Source: Actinomycetota bacterium (GTDB taxonomy: Bacteria > Actinomycetota > Rubrobacteria > Rubrobacterales > Rubrobacteraceae). Taken from it: a DNA stretch of 34,211 nucleotides. A program made the translations under genes and the position numbers. Location of the stretch: positions 1-34,211 of the forward strand of contig CADDZK010000003.1 in NCBI GenBank assembly GCA_902812425.1, in the 5' to 3' direction. Below, in pieces: positions 26,941-29,866 of the stretch; within the stretch, counting starts at the first letter, position 1, and the number at the start of each line of letters is the position of its first letter. The notes beneath the pieces are model-generated. The model made no database searches. It was not told the DNA's origin and saw only the letters and a program-made list of their open reading frames with translations.

Positions 26941-26969
26941 ATTATACGGTTCGGGGCTCGCGGCTTCAA
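26941..26969 (-). promoter_or_regulatory. tRNA-Asn promoter (TTGAAG-N17-TATAAT) overlapping the dnaG stop
   Basis: On the minus strand a perfect TATAAT (26941-26946) lies 17 bases after TTGAAG (26964-26969), four of six to consensus. A transcript would begin near 26934, about nine bases before the mature tRNA-Asn 5' end. The -35 box contains the dnaG TGA stop codon. The pair of tRNAs is therefore likely transcribed independently of dnaG. Confidence 0.75.
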
Positions 26970-29866
26970 GCTCCGGAGGAGACAGAACGCAGCGCCTCTT
27001 TTAGCCGCTGAATCTCTGACTGGAGCGCCTCCTTCCGGTCATAGTCCTCGCTCTCCCTCTTGCTTCGTTCGCGGCTCAGTATCGCCAGTCGCAACCAGGC
27101 CTCGCGCACGGAGGTTTCGGAAGGGTATAGCCTCTCGCCCTGGGAGGCGAGAGCACCGATCTGATCCATCAACGGCCTGGCCCTCTCGTCTGAGAGCAAG
27201 GCATCGAAATCTTCGCCCCGATGTTCTTTTAACAGCGTGAACATCCTGGCGTGGGCATCGTCCCGAAAATCCTCGGCGCGCAGCGTCAAGGGCTCAGGGA
27301 GCTCCTGGGTCTGTACGCCGTCCTCCAGAAGGGGTGCGGTGAGGTCGGGCCTGGCGAGAATGAGGGCGAGCACAGCGCTACCGGCTTCCGTGTGAGGATC
27401 AGCCGGGCCATCTCTCCGTGAGGAGAACTCCCGCCCGGCGACCGGCTCCGGGGACTGCAGGACCTCGGGGCTAACCCCGAGGGATTCGGTGGCAAGACGG
27501 AGGGCCTCACGGTAGAGGACTGGGTCTTTGATCTCCCGAATCATGTTCTTTATCTCGGGTACGGCCTTGGAGCGCTGTGTGGCATCAGCTCCCCTGGTAC
27601 GGGCGACGATGCGCCGGATGCCGTACTCGAGGACTGGCAAGGCACCCTTCAACAACTCCTCGAACTCCTCTGGCGGATGCTCCAGTAGCCAGTCTGCTGG
27701 ATCGTCGGGCAGACGCAGGACACGGAGATCCAGCTTCAAATCGGCCGCCGTCGCCGCCGCCCGCTCTATCGCCTTCTCTCCAGCTGCGTCGGGGTCGAAG
27801 AGGACGTAGATCCTGTCAGCGTAGCCGCTGAGCATGCGCAGGTGGCCAGGGGTGGTGGCCGTACCGAGCGTGGCCACCGCGTTCTTGATGCCAGACTGAT
27901 AGAGCATCAGCACGTCTGTGTAGCCCTCGACGACGAGTGCCGCGCGTTCCCTGCGGATCGCTTCTGAGACCTGCGGGAACCCGTAGAGAAGGTCTCGCTT
28001 GTTGAATATTTCTGTCTCGGGAGAGTTGAGGTACTTGGGCTGGGCGTCCCCGAGCGTCCTAGCCCCGAAGCCTACGATCCTGCCCCGCCGGTCCGAGATG
28101 GGGAAGGTGATCCTACCCGCAAACCTCTCCCCACCCCGCGACGAAAGAAGACCTGCCGCCTCCAGAACACGCCTGTCGAAGTCCAGCCTCCTCGCCGCTT
28201 CCGTAAACCCCGGAACACCCCGCGGTGGCGTAAATCCCAGGCGAAATTCTTCTATAGTAGAACGCTCTATATGGCGTTCTTGCAGGTAGCGGCGGGCCTG
28301 GCCTGCTTCGGGGGATTGGGATCTCAGGAGGTATTTATGGTAGTAGACGGCGGCGGCTGCGAGGGCTTTGTGGATCTCGCGTCGGCGGAGGGTGCGTTGC
28401 CTTGCTGCGTCGGGGTCTCCCCCACCTTCGAATTGCAGATCCACACCCGAGCGTTCGGCGAGGTAGGAGACGGCTTCGGCGAAGTCGAAGGACTTGAGGT
28501 CCATAACGAGCTTGATAGCGTCGCCGCCCCTCTGGCAGTTGTGGGTTATACCCATCTTGGTAAGGAAAGTGTGGGAACCTGTTGTGGTGATGTCCACGAC
28601 CGTCGTCGGCTCGTCTCGCACACTCTGCACCTCATTGACGACCGACAAGTAATACTGCATGCCGTCGATCTCGGTAAAGAAACCTCTCAATGATTCTTTG
28701 CTCAAGATGTGAATGTAGTAGGCTGTTCTATGCTTCGTGCCGTCCCTCCCCCTACGAGCGGGTATAGACGACAAAGAGGACACCTTGCCCGCTTGAACGC
28801 ACAAGGCGAAGATACCGTAGGCTAACTCCTCTGAAACCGTGGTAGCGCTCGTCGTACCGTTGCTGGTACGGCCGTCTCCATCAACGTAGCCTTCTATGAG
28901 CGACGCCTGACATTCCACCGTCCAGTTCAGGACGTCAATCGGCACCCTCTTGTTCGCGCAGCCGCGTCCGAACCAGTGGCCGAAGAGCATCGAAAGATCC
29001 GTGCTGGAACAGGTAACTTCGCAGATGCTCTTGTGCGGCCTCAGGAGGCAGGTGCTGGACTTACCAAATTCCTCTTTCAGAGTCTCCACCACCCTCGCGG
29101 CCAGACTCTTCGCTTCGTGGATACCGAAGCTCCACTTGACCCCTCCCCTGTACAGCGATCCCTCGGCGAGCCAGATACCGTACAACCAGGCTGTCCTGGG
29201 GTTCACAGGCAGATCCGTGATCCGCCGCGTTCGCGGCCCCTTGGTATAAGGTTTGATCACGTACTCGCCTGGGAGAGGTAAGTCGTGACGTTCCTCGTCA
29301 GGAACGACGGGGTAAAGCCAGAAGTCACCCTCGCGGACTTCCGAGGCGTGCTCTACAGAGAGTCGGACATCTGCGTTCTTCTTGCTATGCCTGCTAGAGA
29401 AGCGAAGGTTCTTCCCCCCCGACTGCCTGGTGTGGACCCTGGGGATAGCGCGTAGTGCCTCTTCCCTCTTTACGAATACACACCAATGGTCCGGCGTAAG
29501 CTCGATACCTTCTTTCGCGGCACCAGTCCTCAGGAGCATGGTGGGGCCTGACTTGAACCATTTGTCGGTCACCGTCTCGCGGTGTCCGTCCAGACCGATT
29601 ACCTCGTCGCCTGGTTCGACCGCGCCTATCGGGATCAAACCCCGCGAGGTCCAGATACGCTCATTGGCCTCCAAACACCCGAAACAGTAGTAGAAGCCCC
29701 GATCGGGGGAGACGCTGAAGGACGGTGTCTTCTCCTGGTGGTCAGGGTAGGGGCAGAGGCCGGCGAAGCGGGCCCCCTGGCGCTTCAGGGCTGTGAACTC
29801 GGAGGTGACTTCGACGATGTTCGCCGCCTCCCGGACCTCCTCGATGCTGCGTTGTGAGATCCTCAA
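26966..29866 (-). CDS. dnaG: DNA primase DnaG precursor containing an intein
   Basis: DnaG synthesises RNA primers for replication. The 966-residue precursor splits into N-extein 1-63, intein 64-443 and C-extein 444-966; spliced length is 586. The zinc ligands are Cys38, His43 and Cys61 in the N-extein and Cys444 after splicing (CFG joined to CQRGGD). The spacing C-x4-H (CPYPDHQEKTPSF) is two longer than the usual C-x2-H. The catalytic core shows RFAGRITFPISDRRGRIVGF (581-600), the Toprim EGYTDV (647-652) and DPDAAG (691-696; usually DGDxAG). The TTG start has GGAGG seven bases upstream. ppc lies divergently upstream, two tRNAs downstream. Confidence 0.96.
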   Translation of the reverse strand: MRISQRSIEEVREAANIVEVTSEFTALKRQGARFAGLCPYPDHQEKTPSFSVSPDRGFYYCFGCLEANERIWTSRGLIPIGAVEPGDEVIGLDGHRETVTDKWFKSGPTMLLRTGAAKEGIELTPDHWCVFVKREEALRAIPRVHTRQSGGKNLRFSSRHSKKNADVRLSVEHASEVREGDFWLYPVVPDEERHDLPLPGEYVIKPYTKGPRTRRITDLPVNPRTAWLYGIWLAEGSLYRGGVKWSFGIHEAKSLAARVVETLKEEFGKSSTCLLRPHKSICEVTCSSTDLSMLFGHWFGRGCANKRVPIDVLNWTVECQASLIEGYVDGDGRTSNGTTSATTVSEELAYGIFALCVQAGKVSSLSSIPARRGRDGTKHRTAYYIHILSKESLRGFFTEIDGMQYYLSVVNEVQSVRDEPTTVVDITTTGSHTFLTKMGITHNCQRGGDAIKLVMDLKSFDFAEAVSYLAERSGVDLQFEGGGDPDAARQRTLRRREIHKALAAAAVYYHKYLLRSQSPEAGQARRYLQERHIERSTIEEFRLGFTPPRGVPGFTEAARRLDFDRRVLEAAGLLSSRGGERFAGRITFPISDRRGRIVGFGARTLGDAQPKYLNSPETEIFNKRDLLYGFPQVSEAIRRERAALVVEGYTDVLMLYQSGIKNAVATLGTATTPGHLRMLSGYADRIYVLFDPDAAGEKAIERAAATAADLKLDLRVLRLPDDPADWLLEHPPEEFEELLKGALPVLEYGIRRIVARTRGADATQRSKAVPEIKNMIREIKDPVLYREALRLATESLGVSPEVLQSPEPVAGREFSSRRDGPADPHTEAGSAVLALILARPDLTAPLLEDGVQTQELPEPLTLRAEDFRDDAHARMFTLLKEHRGEDFDALLSDERARPLMDQIGALASQGERLYPSETSVREAWLRLAILSRERSKRESEDYDRKEALQSEIQRLKEALRSVSSGA
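28538..29677 (-). mobile_element. DnaG intein with LAGLIDADG homing endonuclease domain
   Basis: 380 residues inserted between Gly63 and Cys444 of DnaG. Splicing blocks: A begins at Cys64 (CLEANERIWT, then GAVEPGDEVIGLDG); B is LTPDHWCV (His127); F is VVDITTTGSHTFL (His432); G is THNC, with His442, Asn443 and the +1 Cys444. Endonuclease blocks: C LYGIWLAEG (228-236, acid Glu235), D NKRVPIDVL, E LIEGYVDGDG (323-332, acid Asp331). All catalytic positions for splicing and both endonuclease acids are present, so it looks like a full, active intein. Base use is partly different: 25 G/C in the 60 bases at 28681-28740 against 39 in 29821-29880. Confidence 0.95.

Follow-up and report, generated by a model that had tools for sequence, protein, structure and literature searches.

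What interrupts the primase gene dnaG in this member of the Rubrobacteraceae, and how does an essential replication enzyme tolerate it? In the window, as we call the whole stretch of 34,211 nucleotides analyzed here, an open frame at 26966-29866 on the minus strand, the strand of every feature described below, begins with a TTG codon and encodes DnaG with an insert in 966 codons. The DnaG flanks matched TIGR01391 with 363.5 bits (cut-off 283.6), and a profile search of the extein parts returned Zn_ribbon_DnaG, DNAG_N, and Toprim, identifying the host protein as a DnaG with a CHC2 zinc ribbon; DnaB_bind scored 17.6 bits, under its cut-off of 20.6. An earlier note made from the sequence had placed an in-frame, 380-residue insert in the zinc-binding domain at 28538-29677, and its coordinates, strand, and length proved exact: the segment translates without a stop as CLEANERIWTSRG...TKMGITHN and corresponds to residues 64–443 of the DnaG precursor. 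The N-extein (29678-29866; DnaG residues 1–63 from the TTG start) carries the zinc ribbon through YYCFG, and the C-extein (26966-28537; 523 residues and the stop) carries the ribbon end, the catalytic core, Toprim, and the C-terminal domain. Removal of the insert does restore a normal DnaG, of 63 + 523 = 586 residues, in which YYCFG is joined to CQRGGD (junction FYYCFG-CQRGGDAI). Motifs, fold, and translation together lead us to conclude with high confidence that the insert in this chromosomal dnaG of Rubrobacteraceae is an intein of class 1 that includes a LAGLIDADG homing endonuclease; its self-splicing and homing we infer from the established biochemistry of class 1 inteins. A second, short, DnaG-like CHC2 zinc-finger ORF was also observed in the window's genome (G000 C126:5109-5321, 35% identity).

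The insertion point coincides with the metal site of the primase. From CHC2 family knowledge, we take the zinc ligands of the ribbon to be Cys38 in CPYPDH (29753-29755), His43 (29738-29740), Cys61 in CFG (29684-29686), and a fourth cysteine. The intein directly precedes this fourth cysteine; thus, its own Cys1 (29675-29677), the block A nucleophile, fills the ligand place in the precursor, and Cys+1 (Cys444, 28535-28537), the splicing nucleophile of the C-extein, fills it in mature DnaG after splicing. Every empty-site relative that we read has a cysteine at this place. The assignment of Cys38 as ligand 1 also draws on PMC6163395, according to which the primase zinc domain recognizes the template. 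Because the insert splits this template-recognizing domain, DnaG that has not been spliced probably cannot carry out normal priming, and efficient splicing should therefore be essential; the conservation of the splicing residues would agree with such a requirement. The C-x4-H spacing of CPYPDH (29738-29755) was seen in most Rubrobacteraceae DnaGs, as opposed to the usual C-x2-H, and the short C-x2-H ribbon form was seen in the DnaG of two genomes (G010 and G018).

All of the splicing blocks and both LAGLIDADG acids that the earlier note had listed were recovered. Block B (TxxH) reads TPDH (intein residues 61–64, 29486-29497); the first LAGLIDADG motif is AWLYGIWLAEGS, with the acid E172 (29156-29191), and the second is LIEGYVDGDG, with the acid D268 (28871-28900). 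They are followed by block F, VVDITTTGSHTFLT (VVDI...GSHTF, with D362 and H369; 28559-28600), and block G, GITHN (H379 and N380; 28538-28552). Cys1, the N-terminal nucleophile of class 1 inteins, is invariant in the 12 aligned family members, as are T61 and H64 of TPDH and the acids E172 and D268 that end the two LAGLIDADG helices. D362, H369, H379, and N380 occur in all eight DnaG inteins (8/8), and Cys444 provides the Cys, Ser, or Thr required at position +1 of the C-extein. In the eight orthologous inteins, which are 61–82% identical, the splicing and LAGLIDADG positions of the intein are invariant throughout. Between the splicing and endonuclease parts lies the signature IKPYTKGPR (intein residues 141–149, 29231-29257), which possibly has a role in DNA recognition; it is retained in most family members.

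Searches with curated profiles gave a passing score for LAGLIDADG_3 (36.5 bits, cut-off 22.5, E 6e-9), and scores below the cut-off for Intein_splicing (13.7 of the 35.8 bits needed, E 0.054), intein_Nterm (15.6 of 24.5 bits, E 0.024), and intein_Cterm (11.2 of 15.6 bits), a curated cut-off being a detection threshold and no defining chemical feature of class 1 inteins. We attribute the low splicing scores to divergence, as the blocks align fully with those of accepted inteins of DnaB, GyrB, PcrA/UvrD, and a DnaE-like protein, hosts that we presume from reading the flanks. A Pfam Intein_splicing search of the window's genome had likewise suggested that it held no DnaG intein, a result we rejected as a miss caused by this divergence. 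The weak scores of the curated splicing models and the short second CHC2 zinc-finger ORF could also be taken to mean that the intein is degenerate, with cleavage only or no splicing, and that the cell has an impaired DnaG or relies on a second primase instead. We consider this very improbable, given that the splicing residues are invariant across 61–82% identity and under purifying selection and that the C-extein, useless unless joined, is conserved as well.

The fold of the intein was predicted with AlphaFold2. The model built from 16 aligned inteins reached a pLDDT of 90.3 and a pTM of 0.89; a model from the eight close inteins alone reached a pLDDT of only 52 and was not used, and the addition of eight diverse inteins raised this value to 90. 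The best match in the PDB was the TliVMA intein (7qsu, E 9.2e-19), with PhoVMA, PI-SceI, and PI-PkoII also matched. The top matches were all intein-homing endonucleases, after which came mainly I-DmoI, for the endonuclease half. With these full-length matches to intein structures, the predicted fold is that of a Hint domain, and the sequence profile of the eight inteins independently matched PI-SceI (E 8e-6). The earlier note had held that its reading would fail if the segment were a conserved domain of the primase rather than an intein. This is practically excluded: the modeled fold is Hint plus LAGLIDADG, and most DnaGs of the family lack the segment, with an exact junction in its place; nor was it found elsewhere in the phylum sample.

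We surveyed 60 related genomes for the dnaG insert. It is present at the identical codon in seven besides the window's own, namely four with the same genus code (G003, G004, G005, and G007) and three of other genera (G022, G028, and G033), making eight carriers; those that can be named are metagenome-assembled genomes of uncultured Rubrobacteraceae or Rubrobacter. Alignment with intein-free relatives, the check proposed at the outset, showed a continuous dnaG with the exact empty junction in most other members of the family. As relatives have either the same insert or the exact empty site, the insert is no chance feature, and the claim of a full-length intein with an apparently intact LAGLIDADG endonuclease is backed by motifs, fold, and full and empty alleles in close relatives. 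No match beyond the eight carriers was found in 397 Actinomycetota genomes, and a search at codon level for Y[YH]CFGC followed by a hydrophobic residue revealed no other intein at the DnaG site. The pattern matches in G385, G332, and G212 were rejected as intein-free DnaG (CLASGD, CLEGGN), and those in G191 and G377 as proteins other than DnaG.

Full and empty alleles were then compared in pairs. Between G004 (full) and G002 (empty), dnaG differs at 7.0% of sites and the flank is undisturbed. Between G005 (full) and G008 (empty), it differs at 7.1% of sites, and the most divergent 48-base segment of the compared dnaG, with 17/48 differences, lies at the insertion point, centered 9 bases upstream. 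The divergent patch of G008 (L016) extends from about 45 bases before the empty site to 11 after it. The zinc knuckle of G008 is KNLYHCFGCKMGGD, as in a more distant genus (G015), whereas its own genus otherwise has RGFYYCFGCQRGGD. The simplest reading of this one case is that G008 may have lost or escaped the intein when the patch was replaced. Co-conversion as a general rule was rejected: divergence within dnaG is highest in the flank beside the insert in G005/G008 only, and not in the other full/empty pairs.

On a 30-taxon C-extein tree, intein presence or absence changes at least 7 times, against an average of 7.2 with shuffled labels; the carriers are scattered over the DnaG tree to the degree expected of labels placed at random. 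In most comparisons, the dN/dS of the intein is ~0.08–0.15, alike in the splicing and endonuclease regions and no higher than that of DnaG, values that point to purifying selection on both halves of the intein. Such a distribution might reflect an intein inherited vertically since ancient times, lost on many occasions and not spread by homing of late, a history with which several observations are compatible: the bacterial inteins form a single clade, intein and C-extein distances correspond approximately among close pairs, and the tree of the eight inteins shows no strong conflict with the DnaG tree. However, retained endonuclease acids and a low dN/dS are unexpected if the enzyme does not cut. 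In addition, the inteins of different genera are mostly as similar as their DnaGs or more so (61–68% versus 56–65% identity), which hints at movement across genera, although the order is reversed in the closest pair, where the inteins are less similar (74.5% versus 82.2%). On balance, we regard purely vertical descent as unlikely and prefer an intein that has remained mobile.

Several inteins per genome were observed in many Rubrobacteraceae. Those further ones seen in the window's genome (G000 C63, C128, and C41; L001/L004, L002, and L003) comprise two in a PolA-like polymerase, one in a UvrD/PcrA helicase directly after GDDDQ, and another in DnaB before SGAIEQDADM. Hint- or intein-like segments also occur there in proteins that look phage-derived or are hypothetical (G000 C57, L005; C432, L007).

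Relatives of the DnaG intein were found in phages by searching with DNA patterns for the CFGC knuckle, IKPYTKGP, and CLDExELxWT; a first viral scan with the eight Rubrobacter inteins had given no match, a misleading negative that we ascribe to overly restrictive peptide patterns. Three phage contigs encode related inteins (35–40% identity) at the same CHC2 zinc-finger cysteine. With slashes marking the intein ends, the sites read YYCFG/C...HN/CHAKG in IMGVR_UViG_3300037851_001030 (210 kb, intein of 392 aa), YFCYG/C...HN/CQTTGD in IMGVR_UViG_3300005077_000003 (178 kb, 386 aa), and AFCFG/C...HN/CPPGE in IMGVR_UViG_3300044713_000194 (108 kb, 387 aa). The host proteins of the first two match DNA primase families and are clear primases, and both contigs carry phage genes, for example for terminase, sigma factor, exonuclease, or ribonucleotide reductase; in 3300037851_001030, a PHROG terminase family was found and Terminase_6N was not. 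The third host protein, in 3300044713_000194, has a CHC2 zinc finger under the cut-off and no Toprim was found in it; it adjoins a family A DNA polymerase. The intein of 3300037851_001030 aligns with that of the window over its full length (35% identity, E 2e-69). The phage CHC2-site inteins thus share with the DnaG intein the same CxG/C insertion point and full-length homology; they differ in that the block F histidine (H369), present in all eight DnaG inteins, is replaced in the two phage relatives inspected in full.

A fourth relative is inserted in the large subunit of a phage terminase (L129, L130, and L131; SLP/C...HN/CTTNK). All twelve aligned inteins form one clade (support 100/99), within which the bacterial eight form one shallow clade (100/100); the separation of the CHC2-site inteins from the terminase intein has a support of just 69/75. 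With phage CHC2 inteins at the same cysteine and in one family with the bacterial ones, it is plausible that phages serve as a reservoir or vehicle of the intein, and the greater diversity of the phage inteins suggests that phages may be the older reservoir. Together, these observations suggest that phages and bacteria have exchanged the intein within the replication machinery. Around the insertion site, 12–14 of the 24 central bases are identical between the window and two of the phages; therefore, cross-homing between these present-day alleles is not assured.

Other candidates were set aside. An IKPYTKGP match (L123) was a short chance frame, matches in the phage collection at about 22–29% identity sit in other genes, and L119 is an intein at a different site, in a phage portal-like ORF. 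A plasmid search gave no related intein. The terminase ORF of L129–L131 apparently holds a second intein and is identical in the three contigs over the stretch read. Contig 3300037851_001030 (L118–L121) is rich in inteins, with one in the primase, one in a terminase-like ORF, and two in a single ORF (L121); a further Hint/LAGLIDADG ORF (L120) was also seen.

By analogy with other class 1 inteins, Cys1 would undergo an N–S acyl shift and Cys+1 would attack the resulting thioester; Asn380 would then cyclize with the help of His379, and an S–N shift would join the exteins. The predicted products are a 586-residue DnaG with Cys+1 as the fourth zinc ligand and a free 380-residue endonuclease, which would cut intein-free dnaG at the site and thereby let repair insert a copy of the intein.

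Because Cys1 replaces the fourth zinc ligand in the precursor, metal loading of DnaG and splicing might compete for one thiol. Cys1 stands directly behind YYCFG, in the very position of the native fourth ligand, which would allow a CHCC zinc site to form, and the three native ligands stand ahead of it at native spacing; as far as geometry goes, zinc could therefore sequester Cys1. A conceivable, though unlikely, extension is that splicing is gated by zinc or redox state, the CHCC site (C38, H43, C61, and Cys1) holding the catalytic thiol. Equally tentative is the detail that zinc loading pauses splicing, and hence priming, until the zinc or redox state permits. The ligand spacing with Cys1 is intact and kept in all eight DnaG inteins and, within the CxGC knuckle, in the three relatives from phages, and a precedent exists in the DnaB intein of M. 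smegmatis, which zinc inhibits by binding the nucleophilic cysteine (PMC7360933) and whose +1 serine is a metal-coordinating P-loop residue (PMC6195587). However, any Cys1 intein placed ahead of a cysteine ligand has such geometry, which may be meaningless, and the ribbon lies partly in the C-extein, across the intein. Still more doubtful is the wider proposal that the intein is a zinc or redox gate on replication that large phages and Rubrobacteraceae have exchanged at the same codon.

DnaG is listed among intein-containing replication proteins in Table 1 of a review (PMC5874633), where the entry for bacterial DnaG gives no insertion site, organism, or sequence. Inteins at conserved sites of host proteins and intein exchange between phages and bacteria are already known (PMC2814812; PMC5050341). 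In keeping with the initial impression that the insertion point is little described, we found no description, in the open-access literature searched here, of an intein inserted at the zinc-binding cysteine of the primase. What is new beyond the earlier note is that the DnaG site is shared with phages. The locus represents a niche for inteins that recurs within an essential enzyme of replication, where a single residue serves as splicing nucleophile and as zinc ligand; one intein family occupies it in phages as well as in a single family of bacteria. With donor and empty-site alleles defined, phage–bacterium intein exchange becomes testable, and the question whether an extein can control splicing by binding metal can be put to a well-defined example.

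Among known systems, the structurally nearest are TliVMA, PI-SceI (Sce VMA), and PI-PkoII, which, like the DnaG intein, have a Hint fold interrupted by a LAGLIDADG domain with two motifs and share with it Cys1, TxxH, HN, and Cys+1. They reside in V-ATPase or archaeal DNA polymerase rather than in DnaG, and sequence identity is 13–20%; PI-SceI also has a separate DNA-recognition insert, and none was identified in the DnaG intein. The mycobacterial DnaB inteins (DnaBi1 and DnaBi2) resemble the DnaG intein in residing in a core replication protein and in having a +1 residue that is also metal-coordinating in the mature protein (a P-loop Ser, Mg2+; PMC6195587). In contrast, DnaBi1 belongs to the class 3 mini-inteins, lacks an endonuclease, and has another host and site. 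Inteins related to these mycobacterial DnaB inteins are shared with phages but lie in different genes (PMC5050341).
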